From Natronorubrum tibetense GA33 (GTDB lineage: Archaea > Halobacteriota > Halobacteria > Halobacteriales > Natrialbaceae), in the NCBI RefSeq assembly GCF_000383975.1, contig NZ_KB913017.1, positions 1,779,105 through 1,843,104 on the forward strand: DNA of 64,000 bases, written 5' to 3'. Below, piece by piece: positions 13,945 through 39,396 of the stretch. The stretch's first letter is position 1; the number at the start of each line of letters is the position of its first letter. The notes beneath the pieces are model-generated. The model searched no databases and was not told where the DNA came from. It was given only the letters and a program-made list of their open reading frames with translations. A program made the position numbers and the translations under genes.

Positions 13945-14358
13945 CTACTGCACTTCTCGACCGTCGTCGCTGTCGTCGTAGCCCGCCACGACCGTCGACC
14001 CCGCCGGTCGGTCGTTCAGGGTCGCCGTCACCGTCGTCTCCTCGAGATCGACCGTCGACTCGAGGGGGTCCCAGCCGTCCCCGCCCTCGACGGCGACGGC
14101 GACGTCGGTCGGACTCGCGCCGGGCGGCAGTTTCGAAGGATCGTAGACGAGCGCGATTCGGACCGCCTCGACGGCCTTCAATTCGTCGAGACCGACAAGT
14201 TCGATCGGATCCGCAAGCGCGTCCACCGGCGGATCGTCGGCGCTCTTCTCGAGGCCGAACTCGTCGGGGACGACGCCCGCGACGACGGCGACGCGGGCGC
14301 CCGCGTGCTCGAGTGTGAACTCTGCGACGTTGCTCGAATCGTACCCGGGAATGGCCAT
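13945..14358 (-). CDS. conserved-looking hypothetical protein (137 aa)
   Basis: Starts MAIPGYDSSNVAEFTLEHAG at 14358; upstream codons lie over the helicase promoter. The acidic protein has two beta-rich parts: AGARVAVVAGVVPDEFGLE and VRIALVYDPSKLPPGASPTDVAVAVEGG, ending VTATLNDRPAGSTVVAGYDD. No signal peptide, membrane helix or known motif. It is divergent from the helicase gene with 174 bases between starts. I do not recognise the family. Confidence 0.6.
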   Translation of the reverse strand: MAIPGYDSSNVAEFTLEHAGARVAVVAGVVPDEFGLEKSADDPPVDALADPIELVGLDELKAVEAVRIALVYDPSKLPPGASPTDVAVAVEGGDGWDPLESTVDLEETTVTATLNDRPAGSTVVAGYDDSDDGREVQ

Positions 14359-14532
14359 ACTCGTGGCGACGGCCCAGAGACATATGGCCCTGTAGCGTGC
14401 GTTCGCCGGCCGGCGGGTACGCAATTTGCCAGACGGCCAGCCACCACTCACCGTTCGCCGCCGATTCGCGTTTACGTGCGTGCGTCGAACCGAGACGAAC
14501 GCTTTTATCGCAGCGGGAACCAATTATCCACC

Positions 14533-16704
14533 GTGTCCGAAACAGCCGGGTACATGCGCTTTTTCCCGTACGATCAGCCGTACGAGAATCAGCGCGAGGC
14601 GATGGACCGCATCCACAACTCGCTGCAGCGAGGCCAGGACGTGCTCTTCGAAGGGGCCTGCGGGACCGGCAAGACGCTCTCGTCGCTCGTCCCCGCCCTC
14701 GAGGTGGCCCGCGAGCACGACAAGACGGTCGTCATCACGACCAACGTCCACCAGCAGATGCGCCAGTTCGTCGCCGAGGCCCGGGCGATCACCCGCGAAG
14801 AGGACATTCGGGCGATCGTCTTCAAGGGAAAATCGTCGATGTGTCACATCGACGTCGGCTACGAGGAGTGTCAGGCCCTGCGGGACAACACCCGCGCGGT
14901 CGTCGACACCGAACGCGACAAGCGGCAACTCGAGCGTCGCCAGCGCGAACTCTTGTCCGAGAGCCAGGAGGGCGACGGCGGCGCGGCGGACGCTCGCAGC
15001 GCCGTCATGGACGAACTCGAGAACATCGAAGAGCGACTCGACGATCTCGAGGAGCAGAACGTCTGTGACTACTACCGGAACAACCTGACCGAGGATACGG
15101 ACGACTTCTTCGCGTGGCTCTTCGAAGATGTCCGCACCCCCGACGAGATCTACGAGCACGCAGAAAATCAGGAGTTCTGTGGCTACGAACTGCTCAAGGA
15201 GGGGATCGAGGGGGTCGATCTGGTCGTCTGTAACTACCACCACCTGCTCGATTCCACGATACGGGAACAGTTCTTCCGCTGGCTGGGCCGAGAGCCCGAG
15301 GACGTCATCGCCGTCTTCGACGAGGCTCACAACGTCGAGGATGCCGCTCGCGAGCACGCCACGCGAACGTGTTCCGAGCGGACCTTCGACTCCGCGCTCG
15401 ACGAACTCGCCGACGCCGACGATCCGCGCTCGGAGGACGCGGCGAACGCCCTCTCGGCGTTCCACCGCGCGCTCGTCGAGACCTACGAGGACTCCTTCGG
15501 CTTCGGCGACCGCGAGGCGATCGACGAGAACTGGACGGACGTCTCCATCGCCAACGAGAATCGAAAGGACGACCTCACGCTCGAGTTCCTCCAGCGCTAC
15601 TCGGGTCGGGGCATCCAGGACGACCTGGAGGCCGCGATGAAACTCGGCCAGGAACTCGATGAGGAGTACGAGGAAGCCTACCGCGAGGGCGAAACGGCGA
15701 CTCGGACGGAGTGTCAGACCCTACAGGCTGCGGCGTTCGTCAGCGCGTGGATGAACGAGGGCTCGAAGGAGGGGCTCTACCCCGTCGTCACCGTCACCCG
15801 CGACGCCGGCACCGACGAGGTGTACGGCCGCGCGGAACTGTACTCCTGTCTGCCGCGACAGGTGACCGGCCGGCTGTTCGACGAGGTGTACGCGACCGTT
15901 CTGATGAGCGCGACGCTTCAGCCGTTCGACGTCACCGAGAGCGTGCTGGGGCTCGAGGACCCGGTGACGATGGCCTACGGGCTGCAGTTCCCCGAGGACC
16001 GGCGGCGAACGTACGCGGTCGAGACACCGGCGCTGTTCTCCTCGGATCGGGACGATCCCGCCGTCCAAAAGGAGGTCGCCGAGACGATTCACGACACCGT
16101 CCGGATGACGCCCGGCAACACGCTCGCCTTCTTCCCCAACTACGGCGAGGCGAGTCGGTACGCCGAGCGAGTCGACGATCGCTCCGAGAAGACGGTCTAT
16201 CTCGACGAGCCGGGGACGTCGGTCGAGGAGCTGCGCCGGAAGTTCGTCGCGGACGACGGCGCGGTGCTGTGTACGTCGCTCTGGGGCACCCTCGCGGAGG
16301 GGGTCAGCTTCGACGGCGACGACGCCCACACGGTCCTCGTCGTCGGCGTTCCCTACCCGCACCTGGACGACCGAGCGGAGGCGGTCCAGGAAGCTTACGA
16401 CGCCGCCTTCGAGGGGACCGAGACCGGCTGGCGCTACGCCGTCGAGATTCCGACGGTTCGCAAAACGAGACAGGCGCTGGGCCGGGTCATCCGGTCGCCG
16501 GAGGACGTCGGCGTCCGCGCCTTACTCGACCGGCGCTACTCGCGGTCGGCCAAATCGGATCTCGGCAGATACAGCGTCAACAGCACCTTCCCGCACGAAG
16601 AACGCGAGGAACTGATCGACATCGCACCGGAGAAACTCAAGTTCGCGATGCTCAACTTCTACGGCGATTTCGACGCCTACGACGGCGAGACGCCCGCGCC
16701 GTAG
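14533..16704 (+). CDS. XPD/Rad3-type iron-sulfur DNA helicase
   Basis: A 723-residue superfamily 2 helicase. I take the GTG at 14533 (MSETAGYMRFFPYDQPY); ATG 14554 is an alternative. Walker A is GACGTGKT near residue 42, DEAH is VFDEAHN near 261, and the C-terminal motif VI is QALGRVIRSPED. Four cysteines near residues 103, 113, 178 and 215 (SSMCH, EECQ, NVCDYY, FCGY) form the Fe-S domain. It unwinds DNA 5'-3' in repair. Its last 42 bases are duplicated at 17491-17532 beyond a toxin-antitoxin pair. Confidence 0.93.
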   Translation: MSETAGYMRFFPYDQPYENQREAMDRIHNSLQRGQDVLFEGACGTGKTLSSLVPALEVAREHDKTVVITTNVHQQMRQFVAEARAITREEDIRAIVFKGKSSMCHIDVGYEECQALRDNTRAVVDTERDKRQLERRQRELLSESQEGDGGAADARSAVMDELENIEERLDDLEEQNVCDYYRNNLTEDTDDFFAWLFEDVRTPDEIYEHAENQEFCGYELLKEGIEGVDLVVCNYHHLLDSTIREQFFRWLGREPEDVIAVFDEAHNVEDAAREHATRTCSERTFDSALDELADADDPRSEDAANALSAFHRALVETYEDSFGFGDREAIDENWTDVSIANENRKDDLTLEFLQRYSGRGIQDDLEAAMKLGQELDEEYEEAYREGETATRTECQTLQAAAFVSAWMNEGSKEGLYPVVTVTRDAGTDEVYGRAELYSCLPRQVTGRLFDEVYATVLMSATLQPFDVTESVLGLEDPVTMAYGLQFPEDRRRTYAVETPALFSSDRDDPAVQKEVAETIHDTVRMTPGNTLAFFPNYGEASRYAERVDDRSEKTVYLDEPGTSVEELRRKFVADDGAVLCTSLWGTLAEGVSFDGDDAHTVLVVGVPYPHLDDRAEAVQEAYDAAFEGTETGWRYAVEIPTVRKTRQALGRVIRSPEDVGVRALLDRRYSRSAKSDLGRYSVNSTFPHEEREELIDIAPEKLKFAMLNFYGDFDAYDGETPAP
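16663..16704 (+). repeat. direct repeat, left copy: 3' end of the helicase gene
   Basis: These 42 bases encode the helicase's last residues (GDFDAYDGETPAP and stop). They match 17491-17532 at 37 of 42 positions by my count. The copies bracket the TumE/TumA cassette. Confidence 0.8.
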
Positions 16705-16769
16705 GGCTTGCAGCCATGTGTTGTGGCCCACCACAACAATTATTCTGTTGGAGGAAGTAACAACGAACG

Positions 16770-17087
16770 ATGTGCGGGAGCGCTGACGACGAAGCTTCAC
16801 CGGTGATTCGGGTCACAAAGGACTTCGGCGAAACGTATGCCGAAGTCCGAGCGTGGGATGTTCCGGAGTCGGAACGATATCCCGACGGTCTAAAGTACTC
16901 GATGCAGTACGGAACGGCTGACGGTGAGACGATCGTTCGATACGACAACTTCCCGGATCATCCGGATGCGGCTCCCCATCACAAACATCAGTCCGATGGA
17001 ACGGTCGAAGATGTCGAATTTGTGGGTCTCGAACCGCTATTCGAACGATCTCAAAACGAGGTGCGTGATTATGGCGAACACTGGTAA
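16770..17087 (+). CDS. TumE family toxin (DUF6516-like)
   Basis: A 105-residue protein starting MCGSADDEASPVIRVTKDF. YAEVRAWDVPES, GLKYSMQYGTADGETIVRYD and the basic/histidine stretch PHHKHQSDGTVEDVEF match the pattern of TumE-type proteins paired with an HTH partner. The TumE family is annotated as the toxin half of a toxin-antitoxin system; its biochemical target is not settled in archaea. The gene overlaps the next one by 17 bases, which implies tight coupling. Lower GC than the flanking helicase gene indicates transfer. Confidence 0.75.
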   Translation: MCGSADDEASPVIRVTKDFGETYAEVRAWDVPESERYPDGLKYSMQYGTADGETIVRYDNFPDHPDAAPHHKHQSDGTVEDVEFVGLEPLFERSQNEVRDYGEHW

Positions 17088-17490
17088 CTCCACCGACGGC
17101 GACCGAACGATGTACGTCCGCTTTCAACAGGGCGACGAAGACGGGCTTAGAGACGCTCTTAGTGACCTTGACCGAGGTGAAACGACCTCCCCTCACTTCG
17201 AGGTCGTCTTCGATGACCCCGACGATATCCATCGCGTTACGCGACCGAAGAACCTCGAGTTGCTTCGGACGATCGCCCAATACGAACCCGAAAGTATTCG
17301 AGAGACGGCACGTCTCGTCGATCGAGACGTCCGACAGGTCCACACGAATCTCGAGGAACTGGCGGCGCTCCACTTGATCGAATTCGAGCAAGATGGACGA
17401 CGAAAGCGCCCGACCGTCTGGTACGAGACGATAGAGGTCGATCTTCCGCTTTCTGAGTCCGATGTGAGTCGCGACAGAGCTAATGCATAA
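17071..17490 (+). CDS. HTH antitoxin/regulator, TumA-like (HVO_A0114 type)
   Basis: A 139-residue DNA-binding protein starting MANTGNSTDGDRTMYVRF. The C-terminal half is a winged helix: KNLELLRTIAQYEPESIRET, ARLVDRDVRQVHTNLEELAAL (recognition helix) and LIEFEQDGRRKRPTVWYE (wing). Proteins of this type are encoded beside TumE and are thought to neutralise it and autoregulate. The ATG lies inside the toxin gene. The pair is bracketed by duplicated helicase 3' ends. Confidence 0.78.
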   Translation: MANTGNSTDGDRTMYVRFQQGDEDGLRDALSDLDRGETTSPHFEVVFDDPDDIHRVTRPKNLELLRTIAQYEPESIRETARLVDRDVRQVHTNLEELAALHLIEFEQDGRRKRPTVWYETIEVDLPLSESDVSRDRANA

Positions 17491-17532
17491 GGAAATTTCG
17501 ACGCCGACGACGGCAAGACGCTCGCGCCGTAG
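17491..17532 (+). repeat. direct repeat, right copy: displaced helicase 3' end
   Basis: It starts right after the TumA stop codon and repeats the helicase 3' end including TAG. Differences from 16663-16704 are five scattered substitutions, all compatible with a related but not identical helicase allele. Confidence 0.8.
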
Positions 17533-17561
17533 CCCACCCTCGAGAACCACTCACACCCGTC

Positions 17562-17909
17562 TCACTCGACCGGTTCGACCGTCACGTCGGCGGCGCCGTT
17601 CGTCACCGTGACGACGTGAGTGCCGTCGGACTTGACCGTCACGTCGTAGCTGTCGCTCTCTTCGACCGATCGCGCGTCGAGGGGACCCTCGCCGACTTCG
17701 GCGAGCTGTACGCTGACTGCGCTTCCCTCACTGACTTCTCGTACGTCGACCGAGACGGTGAGTTCTTCACCTGCCTCGGCGCTGAACTCGGTCGGCTCCT
17801 CGTCTTGGAGGGTGTCGTCGACGTAGCCGCCGTCCATCAGGCCGGTCACTTCGCTGCAGCCTGCCAGTAACACCGCCGTCGGCCCCGCGAGAACTGCCCG
17901 TCGGTACAT
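17562..17909 (-). CDS. small lipoprotein, function unknown
   Basis: A 115-residue protein starting MYRRAVLAGPTAVLLAGCSE at 17909: twin-arginine-like RR, hydrophobic stretch and lipobox LLAGC with Cys18. An in-frame GTG at 17927 would add six residues before this signal and is less likely. The mature part is acidic and beta-rich (ELTVSVDVREVSEGSAVSVQL, THVVTVTNGAADVTVEPVE), suggesting an extracellular beta-sandwich. No partner gene; function unknown. Confidence 0.75.
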   Translation of the reverse strand: MYRRAVLAGPTAVLLAGCSEVTGLMDGGYVDDTLQDEEPTEFSAEAGEELTVSVDVREVSEGSAVSVQLAEVGEGPLDARSVEESDSYDVTVKSDGTHVVTVTNGAADVTVEPVE

Positions 17910-18002
17910 GGCTCGAGCTACCGACACTGTCGAGTAATAGCTCCTGGACGACTCACGGTTCGATTCCGACGATGAGTCTGCGTCGGGTTCTGTCGAGTTC
18001 GA

Positions 18003-18503
18003 TCAGGCCGGCAACGAGACGCGGCTCACCGGCAATTTGTACGTACCGTCCCAGAACTCGAGTTCGCTGACGGTCCACCGGATCGGCTCGAGTTCCCGCT
18101 CGGCGAGGCGTTTCGCGGTCGCGATGTCGCCCCCGCGGGCCAGCGTGACGTGGGGGACGTAATCGGTTCCCTCGAGGCCCTCGACGGTGTCGAAGGCATC
18201 GGTGAGGGTCGCGTGGATCGACTCGAGGCCGGGACTCTCGACGGCGAGATAGACCACGGGTGCGGAGCCGAGCGGCGGATCTTCGAAGCAGTCGATGCCC
18301 GTAATCTGGGCTTCGACGGCGGGAGCGCCCTCGAGGGCGCGGTGGGCGCGGTGTTGTAACTGGGCAACGTGGTCGGCGTCGCCGAGACGTTTGAGCAGAC
18401 AGGAGTGATCCTCGCGGACGCTGTCGAAGCCGACGAGTTCCGGGTAGAGCTCGTTGGCGATGGTCCGGACGCGTCCGGGAACCGGGACGTTGACGCTGTA
18501 CAC
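18003..18503 (-). CDS. 2'-5' RNA ligase superfamily protein
   Basis: A 166-residue protein of the 2H phosphoesterase fold. The second HxT motif is clear (YVPHVTLARGG); the first reads EDHSCLLKRLG, where Cys replaces the usual Thr. Family enzymes ligate or cleave 2',5'-linked RNA or cyclic phosphates. Length is normal. The altered first motif could reduce activity or shift specificity. It neighbours a lipoprotein and a small membrane protein with no shared theme. Confidence 0.82.
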   Translation of the reverse strand: MYSVNVPVPGRVRTIANELYPELVGFDSVREDHSCLLKRLGDADHVAQLQHRAHRALEGAPAVEAQITGIDCFEDPPLGSAPVVYLAVESPGLESIHATLTDAFDTVEGLEGTDYVPHVTLARGGDIATAKRLAERELEPIRWTVSELEFWDGTYKLPVSRVSLPA

Positions 18504-36100: not shown

Positions 36101-38575
36101 TTTACCAGACGTATAGACGGCTCGGGGGGCGATATTCTTGATGTAGCCGATCATCTGAGAGTTGTGAGAGATGACCCCGTTCGAGATGTAGTTGTGAGTG
36201 CCCTCGATCTCGAGGTCGTATACCCAGTCGTAGTCGGTTTGGACTGTCTCGATACTCTCGATGCGTTCCCAGCAAACCTCTCCTTCGACGAACTGCTCGA
36301 GTGCAGAGATACTCGTTTTCACCGACCCACCATCAGCTACAGCAGTCTCCTCGCTTTGGCTCTCCTCCGGCGGTAGCGCGTTTTTGAAAGCTGTGACGAC
36401 CTTCCGAAGGCTCTCTCGGCTCGGGTTTCTCGAGCCGCGCTCGTAGTGTTGATACGTCGACCGAGGGAGCCCACAATCAGCCTGTGCAAGTGCTAGTGAC
36501 TCTCGAATTTGCCGGAGTTCTGAGCCGATGTTCGGGATAATATCGAGGTTCGTATTCCCAGCTGTACCAGTATGCTGCGCTGCAGCCTCCTGCTTTCGAC
36601 GGGTAATAAACCCGATTTCGGAGACGTACGTCTCAAATTCGTTTCCGCTTATTCTGAGTCGGTAGCTTCCGTTCTGTCGCTCGTGAAGCTGTGAACGGAT
36701 GCCGACTGAGAGAAGCAACGTTCTCACATTCTCAAGCAGGTCTCGACTCATCGAAGCGGCAGTGATCTCCCGCTGGGACTCCGAAACGTGACCTTCTCCT
36801 TCGATGAACGCTTTGAGGAACTCTGATTTGGTATCCGCAGAAGCCCTCGAAATGCAGTCTGGGACTCGTTGTTCATCAGACGAGCGAAGAATACGCGGCT
36901 CGAGTGTCTTGAGGAAGCTCACGAACTCTCCTGCTGAACAGAGTAGTTCGCGTGCGTCCTTCGATTCGTGAGGTTCTCGCTCTGTCGTGTTGAGCCCTAG
37001 TTTCTCCAGTGCGCTGGCCGCGTCGTCCAGTACTTCTCTATCGTTGTTCGTAATCGAAACGTATCCTGTGCTGTCATCCCGTTGTTCGACATAGCCCTCT
37101 GCAACGATGTAGCCGATCAATCGCGCTAGCGACGGTGTCCATTCGGCGGGCAGATCAAGCTGAACTGCATTTCGTGATTTAGATTGTCGGTAATCAATAT
37201 CGAGTGTGTCGTCTGCTTCCGTCGAAAGGCTTCGAGGAGCAGCAACAAACTGCCCTTCAGCGAGTTCGTCTGCAACAACCGGTTTAAATTGGCCGTTATC
37301 TTGGACGAACAGCGGATGCGATGGCGTCACCTCGAGTTCCCGTCCGCTCGAGGTCCGAACCCGGTACATCTGATCGGGTGCGTCTCGTTTCCAGACTTTC
37401 GTCGCCCGCTGTTGTGCGATGGATCCGTCGTCCTGCAGTGACGGGACCTCGAGATCGATCTCATCGTACCAGCCGTCGTCGATCGGTTTCGGGTCCTCGA
37501 GATTTGACTCGACGAGATCGCGAATCGGAACATCTCGCCCGTCTGCAAGAGTAATCTTCGTATCTCCGCGGACGCATTTACCGGTACCCGGATCACCGAT
37601 AAGCAGCATATGCAGGTCGCCGCGGATCCTCGAGCCGTCGGGCAACTGCTTCGTCACGCCCGAGAACAACTGCAAGATCATCGCGAGTTTCTCCTGTTCG
37701 TAGCCGTAGATCGAGGGCGCGATGGAGGCGACCATCTGCTCGTAGACATCGTCCTGGTTGGAGATTTCGTAGATCGCCTTCTTGTCCTCGTCGGTGATGT
37801 CCATGTCCTCGAACTGCTCTTCGTCGACGTCGACGGACATCCCCTCCATGTAGAAGTCGAAGACGGGCGACTTCTCCTGTTGGTCGCCCTGTTGCTCGAG
37901 TCGCAACACGCCGGTCGCGGAGACGTGGTCGCCGGGGGTGACCTCGCCGGTGATGTCGTCTTCGATGTGTACGTCGAGCGACTGCGGGGTTTCTCCGCCG
38001 CGTAAGCCTTCGGGACTCTCCTGCATCCGGAGCTTCTGGGAATCGACGAACTCCGACTGGTCGAAGTTCACCTTGAACGGTCCCTGTCGTTCACAGCCTT
38101 GACACTCGTGTGGCTCCTGGAAGTCGCCGCTGGACTGGGGAATTCGCGTCAGCGTGCCACAAAGCTGGCACTCGAAGGCAGCTTCCTCGATCTTCGGGCG
38201 AACGTCGGTGGCTTTCCGGATAATGCCGTGGACCTGTACGAGAGAGTTCATATCCCGCGCGCGGATCTCCCGGATTTCGGGAGCCTCCGTCTCGGGGAGC
38301 CCTCGTATTCTGACGTGGGCCTGCCCGAGGCTGACGTCGATCGGCAGGTCGTACAGCCGCAGCGCCTCCTCGGCATAGCGCTGAAGCTGTTCGGGCTGGT
38401 TGAGATAGTCGTCCGCGAGATCCGGATCGTATCGGTAGAGGTCCTGCCAGTCGATATGAAGCGAGCGCTGCTCGTTGGGGTATCGCTGCGCAAGCTGCTT
38501 GATTTCGTTGTCGTAGTAGTTGCGGAAGAACTGCTCGAATGCGTCGACGAGTTCCGTATTTCCCGCTTGCGCCAT
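33131..38575 (-). CDS. mcm: MCM replicative DNA helicase with two inteins
   Basis: A 1,814-residue reading frame. Exteins add up to about 700 residues, the usual MCM length: N-terminal domain with zinc motif (ECQLCG, ECQGCE), Walker A (GDPGTGK, residues 327-333), Walker B DELDKMR (866-871 end), arginine finger SRFDLIF and a C-terminal winged helix. Intein 1 occupies residues 334-805 between GTGK and SQM; intein 2 occupies 872-1513 between DKMR and SEDRS. After splicing the hexameric helicase unwinds DNA at the fork. TATAAAT at 38602-38608 is 30 bases upstream of the start. Both inteins break catalytic ATPase motifs, so the enzyme is inactive until spliced. Confidence 0.95.
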   Translation of the reverse strand: MAQAGNTELVDAFEQFFRNYYDNEIKQLAQRYPNEQRSLHIDWQDLYRYDPDLADDYLNQPEQLQRYAEEALRLYDLPIDVSLGQAHVRIRGLPETEAPEIREIRARDMNSLVQVHGIIRKATDVRPKIEEAAFECQLCGTLTRIPQSSGDFQEPHECQGCERQGPFKVNFDQSEFVDSQKLRMQESPEGLRGGETPQSLDVHIEDDITGEVTPGDHVSATGVLRLEQQGDQQEKSPVFDFYMEGMSVDVDEEQFEDMDITDEDKKAIYEISNQDDVYEQMVASIAPSIYGYEQEKLAMILQLFSGVTKQLPDGSRIRGDLHMLLIGDPGTGKCVRGDTKITLADGRDVPIRDLVESNLEDPKPIDDGWYDEIDLEVPSLQDDGSIAQQRATKVWKRDAPDQMYRVRTSSGRELEVTPSHPLFVQDNGQFKPVVADELAEGQFVAAPRSLSTEADDTLDIDYRQSKSRNAVQLDLPAEWTPSLARLIGYIVAEGYVEQRDDSTGYVSITNNDREVLDDAASALEKLGLNTTEREPHESKDARELLCSAGEFVSFLKTLEPRILRSSDEQRVPDCISRASADTKSEFLKAFIEGEGHVSESQREITAASMSRDLLENVRTLLLSVGIRSQLHERQNGSYRLRISGNEFETYVSEIGFITRRKQEAAAQHTGTAGNTNLDIIPNIGSELRQIRESLALAQADCGLPRSTYQHYERGSRNPSRESLRKVVTAFKNALPPEESQSEETAVADGGSVKTSISALEQFVEGEVCWERIESIETVQTDYDWVYDLEIEGTHNYISNGVISHNSQMIGYIKNIAPRAVYTSGKGSSSAGLTAAAVRDDFGDGQQWTLEAGALVLADRGIAAVDELDKMRCVTGDTLVHTYNGIKPVRELAHEAIADGSIEEYENGRTIRDVDVDVWTMAENGNVVKRDVLAIHEYDAPEELRRVELESGEQLTTTADHPFFILEDGERKERQAQHLHEGDWVYVPEKIPAEITDGGVSILPAYDAEPEVDHITAAHGAILGYIAGDGNIFYDRKGGSYGFRFTNKEEELLTDFEEACEVAFNTEAVRHPSEQRSDGVETVRVHGKQYVDDLLESGANLETYDGKRLPGTITNASRETKAAFVRALADSEGTVDERAVKIHSSSYELLLGTKMLLLEFGISSQIQTRNHDEKRDLFILAITSDQSLNAFERHIGFTLGRKQHALERACERTTGTRTILDVLPECGELFEQARGALRLHQSECGLESDATYCNFENGDANASLRLSKTILETFEERKAAAGDHHKELASETSWERLAELREQYHVSQRELAAEMSLSQQQLSARWGTDTDLRERVRNRLREQLTTPASVNLEPLRTLVENDVKWRRVKTVDSVDSREHTDTRVRVLEQQLADELGTSTVNSIRERARSLLETDEPAETWDELRGRLEAYGISFQQVANEMEVAGSTVSRWFSGAVEVNNFETVRSVCTALLNEKRQSISELLEEIERRDLPRVYDLTVEGTHNFIANGMVVHNSEDRSAMHEALEQQKISVSKAGINATLKSRCSLLGAANPKYGRFDHYEPISEQIDLEPALISRFDLIFTVTDEPDEEKDRNLAEHIINTNYAGELTTQQKEMNTMDVSSEEIEEMTEKVDPEIDADLLRKYIAYSKQNCHPRMTEVARNAIRDFYVDLRSKGTDDDAPIPVTARKLEALVRLSEASARVRLSDTVEESDANRVIEIVRSCLQDIGVDPETGEFDADIVEAGTSKSQRDRIKNLKQLISDIEEEYDDGAPVDIVMERAEEIGMDQSKAEHEIEKLKQKGEVYEPSMDNLRTT
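34037..35962 (-). other. MCM intein 2 (residues 872-1513)
   Basis: A 642-residue intein inserted immediately after Walker B. It starts CVTGDTLVHTYNGIKPV, has the block-B TxxH as TTADHPFF, and ends GTHNFIANGMVVHN before Ser. LAGLIDADG homing-endonuclease motifs are ILGYIAGDGNI and FVRALADSEGT. Between them and the C-terminal splicing blocks are extra helix-turn-helix-like stretches (VSQRELAAEMSLSQQQLS, ISFQQVANEMEVAGSTVS). AT-richer than the exteins. Confidence 0.9.
36161..37576 (-). other. MCM intein 1 (residues 334-805)
   Basis: A 472-residue intein inserted in Walker A between GTGK and Ser. It begins CVRGDTKITLADGRDVPI, has VTPSHPLFV (block B) and ends GTHNYISNGVISHN. Endonuclease motifs are LIGYIVAEGYV and FLKAFIEGEGHV. 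A Cro/C1-like HTH (LRQIRESLALAQADCGLPRS, TYQHYERGSRNPS) lies before the C-terminal splicing part. AT-richer than the MCM exteins. Confidence 0.92.
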
Positions 38576-38939: not shown

Positions 38940-39396
38940 TTTACAGGAGGCACAGCGCAATGCCACGGCCTTCAGGCCGTGGATACGCGCGTAAGCCTGA
39001 TGAATCCACATCTCGTAGTTAGTAACACCGGAGTTCCCACGTTGAGAAATGCCGTCTTCGACGGCACCACGACTTTGTCGTGACTTCTCGCGTGGTAACA
39101 AATCCGACTGACTCAGTCCGCCACGTCCCGGCCAACTGGTCGGACGCCAATGGCGGTACCCAGCAGGCTGAACACCCTGTCGCTGAACGGAACGCGGTGT
39201 TCCGTGTTGAAGCGCCCAGCGCGTCCGGGTGGGAAGGCCCCATTGACAGGGCTGTACGCGCTGCAACGCACGTCCTTGGTCACAACTGGACGGCGACTGT
39301 CGAAGGGAGGACGCGAAAGCGTACTTCACTCCCGAGGAAACGCGCAACCTTGAACTCCGCTTCGCGGATTCCCGCGACTTCAGGCGCGGGAGGATG
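38940..39396. mobile_element. decayed IS200/IS605 (TnpB-type) element remnant
   Basis: Bounded by two subterminal-type hairpins: CCACGGCCT/AGGCCGTGG with a 2-base loop at 38963-38982, and CCCGCG/CGCGGG at 39371-39390 followed by AGGATGTCAA, an end sequence typical of this family. Inside are short hairpins (GAGAAATGCCGTCTTCGACG, CACGACTTTGTCGTG) but no intact tnpA or tnpB. Some stretches read like the far C-terminus of a haloarchaeal TnpB (SLNGTRCSVL), with frameshifts. Right end meets the DUF502 stop codon. Confidence 0.5.

Follow-up and report, generated by a model that had tools for sequence, protein, structure and literature searches.

A TumE/TumA operon inserted at the 3' end of a helicase gene in Natronorubrum tibetense GA33, with similar footprints behind other haloarchaeal genes

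In Natronorubrum tibetense GA33, a predicted TumE/TumA toxin-antitoxin operon lies directly behind an XPD/Rad3-like helicase gene and is bracketed by two copies of that gene's 3' end; this is an insertion footprint, gained in the lineage of this species. The DNA analysed (the window) is a stretch of 64,000 nucleotides from contig NZ_KB913017.1, positions 1,779,105 to 1,843,104, and positions below are counted from its first base. The helicase open reading frame (ORF), which carries the DEAD_2 and Helicase_C_2 domains and was the target of the insertion, occupies 14,305-16,704 on the forward strand (this is the ORF start; the true start may differ). Its last 42 bases, TAG stop codon included (copy 1, 16,663-16,704), recur in the same direction at 17,491-17,532 (copy 2) with 37 of 42 bases equal and 5 differences, the similarity setting in at about 17,488 and ending in both copies with the last base of TAG. 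Copy 2 begins right at the tumA stop, and the pair stands between the copies, in a segment (16,705-17,490) with a guanine-plus-cytosine content of 55.2%; the helicase gene has 65.5% and the whole window 62.8%. The repeat around TumE/TumA had been pointed out in the initial annotation of the window, and both alignment and Pfam matches confirm it.

The empty site is seen in the nearest congener, Natronorubrum texcoconense (G008, same contig as L061), whose helicase protein is 98% identical: there the helicase stop runs directly into the sequence that follows copy 2 in the window. When 224 kb of the N. tibetense genome are aligned with 220 kb of G008, a 790-bp insert with a 38-bp overlap appears at this point; an overlap also marks four more of the 38 gaps of at least 150 bp listed in the same comparison, measuring 2-7 bp in three of them and 36 bp in the fourth. 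The last of these, at an apparent glutamate-mutase operon, shows weak similarity and was rejected as a clear repeat. In the 1.5 kb after the helicase, none of nine congeners has TumE/TumA and none has a second helicase end (best match 25/42), and several of them have TumE relatives at other places in the genome. The wider comparison took in 81 helicase loci, namely the best 80 of the 229 loci found plus G008 (80 distinct, one of them without the gene end); TumE/TumA stands at the helicase in none of the 81, and no second helicase end, with 25 of 30 bases required, was detected in the 79 other loci that hold the stop. The single gene end with an uninterrupted flank that the initial annotation had expected in strains without the cassette is thus what the congeners have, the texcoconense flank being continuous; relatives lacking the cassette and keeping both copies, the arrangement it had named as contrary to integration, do not occur among the nine. 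Its reading of the pair as an integration is supported by this empty site and by the similar footprints behind other gene ends described below.

Since copy 2 runs on into the native flank, it is the displaced original end, non-coding now, while copy 1 completes the present helicase and is identical to the N. texcoconense sequence at 42 of 42 bases. Four of the five differences in copy 2 alter an amino acid (the changes being D to N, Y to D, E to K and P to L), one of them hitting a tyrosine at a position that the listed tails fill with Tyr or Trp: copy 2 is decaying. It differs from N. texcoconense at 5 of 42 bases, much as the flank does (89.8% identity over the first 98 aligned bases from 17,533), and the insertion is therefore not very recent. 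Among the helicase loci compared, a TTC codon present in both copies is found only in the window and in N. texcoconense, so both copies belong to that clade, and a foreign helicase allele was rejected as the origin of copy 2.

In a tree of 32 TumA proteins the window pairs with a locus from another genus, G032, at a support of 92/92, below the mark of 95/80. G032 has the same order as the window -- helicase, TumE, TumA, small ORF, LigT -- and 83.9% identity over helicase and cassette, as might be expected had the cassette been ancestral here, been lost in N. texcoconense and others, and the repeat arisen later. Such a history is very improbable: the native flank of copy 2 is in register with the empty site, the absence of the pair from all nine congeners would call for many clean losses, and the TTC codon assigns the duplication to the window/texcoconense clade. 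The spacer of G032 is longer than that of the window and dissimilar to it, and no second helicase end was found there, so that G032 is not the direct donor. A search for the 65-bp spacer that follows copy 1 in the first 120 bases past the helicase stop of relatives gave a best score of 10 (L013), unconvincing beside a top score of 9 among 100 random draws.

The pair itself is predicted to be a TumE-TumA toxin-antitoxin system from its domains and from the adjacent antitoxin-type gene. The toxin gene tumE (16,770-17,087, forward strand, 105 amino acids) matches PF20126 at 60.4 bits (cut-off 23.4); the antitoxin gene tumA (17,071-17,490, forward strand, 139 amino acids, family HVO_A0114), which overlaps tumE by 17 bp, matches PF25212 at 106 bits (cut-off 27.6) and encodes a protein of predicted DNA-binding type. 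Against the NCBIfam equivalog NF045777 the window TumE reaches 19.6 bits and fails the cut-off of 90, so it represents a distant branch and not the equivalog. Upstream of tumE, at 16,719-16,765 on the forward strand, lies a putative operator/promoter, its function suggested by two inverted repeats (TGTTG..ACAACA and TGTTG..ACAACG) flanking a TTATT box. A double inverted repeat of the TGTTG..CAACA type around a TTA-rich box is recognisable in most of 31 cassettes, and a strict pattern of its first inverted repeat matches 17 of the 31, as against 0 of 2000 random 89-mers; this putative operator hints at autoregulation by TumA.

It is also the left end of the moving unit. Seventeen cassette pairs were compared, 11 of them at different loci, and in eight of these 11 the DNA in common is confined to a stretch from about -54 of tumE as far as the tumA stop, as in G002/G117 and G314/G243 (-48 to 0) and in G399/G371 (-44 to -5). 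No inverted repeat bounding the cassette is among those listed for the window, and neither integrase nor transposase was found in the 0.8-kb window unit, where tumE and tumA are the only scanned ORFs with a family match (the flanks were not searched for integrases).

TumE relatives (E-values up to 1e-8) were identified in 41 of 125 genomes of the family and TumA relatives (up to 1e-20) in 195 of 391 genomes of the class. From a selection of these matches, 71 distinct TumE/TumA cassettes, each with 250 bp or more of sequence to its left and right, were scored for bracketing direct repeats. Rows with a shorter flank, rows lacking a TumE match at a distance of no more than 700 bp and rows nearly identical to another had been dropped. 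The threshold was set at a score of 18; the window repeat scores 29. Eight of the 71 cassettes have a repeat at 18 or above and six at 29 or above, compared with 20 and 9 of 6000 random 720-bp intervals and with 20 and 4 of 4302 intervals set at ORF ends (Fisher p 6e-10 to 8e-9). The null combined the initial 0.8 Mb of this chromosome with helicase loci lacking TumE/TumA, and L085 was left out, a similar repeat without TumE being known there; L194 (28/33) falls under the threshold and was not counted. Short repeats are common in the window DNA, and chance similarity between stretches of GC-rich coding sequence might be invoked, with a probability that is next to nil given the 9 in 6000 and the exact fit of the repeat to the texcoconense empty site.

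The footprint recurs, then, without being universal among TumE/TumA cassettes. G068 and G085 represent the same insertion, at a gene here called X3, so that the eight repeat-bearing cassettes amount to seven events, of which four lie at gene 3' ends: the window, purK (G041), a rubrerythrin-like gene (G233) and X3. Cassettes behind the ends of other genes, which the initial annotation had proposed looking for, do therefore exist. The repeat in G039 is a gene start, that in G314 is intergenic and weaker in its relative G311, and that in G009 is a 19-bp hairpin beside an ORF read as TnpB-like. Of the idea that gene ends serve as docking sites in place of tRNAs, the recurrence at gene ends stands, and a site-specificity like that of tRNA genes is not established: the repeat lengths vary from 36 to 150 bp (42-45 bp in the window), 63 of the 71 cassettes have no repeat above threshold, three of the seven events are not at gene ends, and the 79 other helicase loci show no second end.

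In G041 the purK 3' end is repeated around the cassette with 57 of 60 bases equal, and in all four congeners of G041 compared, purK and purE have no TumE/TumA between them. In G041 itself copy 2 is separated from purE by an ArsR-like gene and a further ORF, so that a native flank is not proven at purK. The end of the rubrerythrin-like gene is repeated over 36-42 bp in G233, where the cassette faces the gene, and the displaced end with its flank aligns with G230 over 1144 bp at 83%. In the TumA tree G233 pairs with G185 (100/99), in which an intact TumA lies beside the same rubrerythrin-like gene and tumE is a 61-amino-acid remnant cut off by a thermosome gene (L158:1230-1923) -- a broken pair with its antitoxin kept. 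As a repeat-free donor G185 is ruled out, since the truncation of tumE has cost it the far side.

X3 is an ORF of 154 amino acids without a Pfam family, multi-copy in a haloarchaeal genus (L314-L343), and occurs both with and without the cassette at its end. In the 29 genomes searched for it, the arrangement X3, cassette, displaced end is found at 8 loci of 7 genomes, with a repeat of about 150 bp in G068. The displaced ends run into a flank resembling that after most empty X3 stops; the full copies at these loci run into cassette sequence instead. The displaced copies begin at the same X3 base in seven of the eight loci (later in G085), and X3 is therefore counted as one event. In trees of short regions, drawn without support values being read, the ends next to the cassette in G062, G074, G081 and G085 cluster separately from the cassette-free copies, and the gene bodies of those loci are interspersed with them; such mixed ancestry would be consistent with later spread by ordinary recombination.

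The arrangement is not confined to TumE/TumA. In Halorhabdus amylolytica (L085:943-3587) a lone archaeal ATPase gene (PF01637, DUF234) lies behind a cation-efflux gene whose last approximately 90 bp are repeated around it, with no TumE; by coordinates, the two flanking genes adjoin each other in the related L082.

Similarity between the copies ends at the stop codon in all four gene-end cases, and likewise in L085; in X3 the stop codons themselves differ between the two copies. When 1.75 Mb were scanned for repeated gene ends, 11 rows resulted, and the eight with short similarity were inspected: the window, G041, L085 and five from L057, L132 and L134, in which similarity continues beyond the stop. 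The corresponding scan of this chromosome, covering 0.8 Mb, turned up a single pair at a distance of 366 bp, which was set aside as two neighbouring genes with like tails, read from the letters alone. A similarity that goes no further than the stop is accounted for by copies from two backgrounds with different flanks and is left unexplained by blind target duplication. This bears on a transposition-like insertion, in which some enzyme would duplicate 20-150 bp of target. The variable repeats, including the gene start in G039 and the intergenic stretch in G314, fit a target duplication, and this matches the description given for restriction-modification genes. A blind duplication would, however, often extend into the intergenic flank, and in the window, G041, G233, X3 and the Halorhabdus case the repeats do not reach past the stop codon, so that this explanation is judged improbable.

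An integrase acting in trans -- on a non-autonomous or degenerate element with a gene 3' end as attachment site and a replacement end supplied -- deserves somewhat more credit and is still rather unlikely. Integrases that use gene ends usually leave a replacement end, a displaced end and identity up to the gene end, all of which fit the present loci, and the same gene has been used in two taxa twice (window and G032, G233 and G185). Against this, the window unit of 0.8 kb has only tumE and tumA among its scanned ORFs (its surroundings were not searched), no common core was seen by eye in repeats of such varied length, the 79 other helicase loci yielded no second end, and most of the compared cassettes at different loci share nothing beyond the stretch from operator to stop.

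The explanation preferred here, and on balance a probable one, is a homology-anchored insertion of the bare TumE/TumA operon at the helicase 3' end, with illegitimate joining on the far side. The inserted unit would be the bare operon from operator to TumA stop, and the incoming DNA would already have had it beside a copy of the gene end. One junction presumably arose by homologous pairing (RadA-type) of this copy with the resident gene end; on the other side, illegitimate joining would have taken place a few dozen bases upstream of the stop. Copy 1 now completes the helicase, and the old 3' end with the native flank is left to decay behind TumA. Selection would keep those products in which host gene, TumE and TumA are all intact, the addictive operon might then hold itself in place, and the duplication would amount to two homology arms through which the cassette could spread or be lost by ordinary recombination. 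Recombination between two helicase alleles with the cassette between them had been the second suggestion of the initial annotation; it is favoured and not proven.

Several observations weigh against this homology-anchored insertion. No donor with copy 1 and the same spacer was found, G032 being set aside as above. Copy 1 and the adjoining gene equal N. texcoconense over 75 bp, which is not unusual beside identical runs of 92-113 elsewhere in the gene; an imported tract at the helicase 3' end was accordingly rejected as a finding, and copy 1 may have been either resident or imported. The exact stop boundary in G041, with copies 95% identical, requires an old gene-plus-cassette haplotype to be assumed. 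Differences between the copies are not clearly of coding type, the evidence being mixed: among changed codons, 7 of 10 are synonymous in G068, 2 of 3 in G041, 3 of 12 in L085, 1 of 6 in the window and 0 of 1 in G233 (G085 was not included in this test). Three of the 11 different-locus pairs share DNA past the unit (1.7 kb downstream in G002/G094, 28-29 bp in two G009 pairs). TumE relatives are present on 13 plasmid records, and the record of Haloferax phage LSV-48N (PP151251.1:1742-2056) contains a TumA relative with 39% identity, so that carriers exist for the family; a TumE scan of IMG/VR found no relative, its two hits being pattern matches. The majority of cassettes without a repeat, the three events away from gene ends and the short regions behind the X3 trees belong on the same side, and small variable segments flanked by repeats are, as far as the accessible text of one survey goes, common in bacteria (10-18%, mostly under 30 bp; PMC2884548).

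A wider proposal is offered tentatively: that bare TumE-TumA operons may be self-propagating haloarchaeal units without transposase or integrase, docking by means of a stop-terminated copy of a gene end and then, through the two homology arms that the duplication provides, spreading further with the recombination machinery of the host. The movement of small toxin-antitoxin pairs outside plasmids, phages and transposons is an open question, and the present loci supply footprints with empty sites at several genes, together with a regularity -- the stop-codon boundary -- that any mechanism has to account for. Haloferax volcanii is genetically tractable, which makes the proposal directly testable.

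Beyond copy 2, the native flank found after the helicase stop in N. texcoconense occupies 17,533-17,561. It is followed on the reverse strand by a small ORF (17,562-17,927) with a lipobox-like start, as read by eye, and no Pfam family; this is the native right neighbour, lying 32 bp past the helicase stop in G008. The next gene, also native and on the reverse strand, is a 2'-5' RNA ligase/LigT-like gene (18,003-18,503), which comes next in many relatives too. Elsewhere in the comparison with N. texcoconense, there is a 1412-bp insertion at window positions 36,164-37,575 with a 4-bp overlap, possibly an intein in a coding gene; a 449-bp insertion at 38,945-39,393 with a 7-bp overlap, perhaps a small non-autonomous element (both of these are guesses); and a 4.7-kb stretch, from -1590 to 3105, to which just 111 bp correspond in N. 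texcoconense.

Among known systems, CIME/IME-type integrative elements (cis-mobilizable and integrative mobilizable elements) at gene 3' ends supply a replacement end and leave the displaced old end as a direct repeat. The loci described here resemble them in the gene-end direct repeat, with its replacement and displaced ends, and differ in having no integrase in the window unit, a variable repeat length and, in 79 loci, no other element at the site. For type VI secretion effector-immunity arrays, the text available proposes homology-facilitated illegitimate recombination in which a whole immunity gene is displaced (PMC5361080). There, too, a toxin-immunity module is added behind a homologous anchor and the old 3' part is displaced downstream (PMC5361080); here a 42-bp gene end and not a whole immunity gene has been displaced, and the case is known from sequence. 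In the published account of the TumE-TumA superfamily the tested pairs are proteobacterial, with TumE beside a predicted DNA-binding antitoxin (PMC10584680). The present pair shares with them the Pfam toxin family and the adjacent predicted DNA-binding antitoxin, and is unlike the pairs tested there in being archaeal and below the NCBIfam TumE equivalog cut-off. At the level of titles, no literature on such a footprint for TumE-TumA was found.

Insertion with long target duplication was reportedly described for restriction-modification gene complexes by Nobusato et al. in 2000 and Furuta et al. in 2010, and Chinen et al. in 2000 are said to have made an archaeal comparison of restriction genes. 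In the parts of the literature that were accessible, restriction-modification genes insert, as described by Kobayashi and colleagues, with a long, variable target duplication, of the order of 100 bp (PMC1643837, PMC3031569, PMC3874152), and the phrase "long target duplication" appears together with toxin-antitoxin only for restriction systems or in a reference title (PMC3874152, PMC3031569, PMC2654758). As far as those accounts go, the likeness extends to a self-addictive gene pair, a direct repeat of target DNA that varies in length and discovery by genome comparison; one copy at the empty site and two around the insert are a further point in common. The cargo here is TumE/TumA in haloarchaea, by contrast, most repeats are below the order of 100 bp given there, and the repeats at genes consist of 3' ends that break off with the stop codon. 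The closest known kind is the "insertion with long target duplication" of restriction-modification genes, of which the present case, its cargo being TumE/TumA and not a restriction-modification system, is regarded as a variant.

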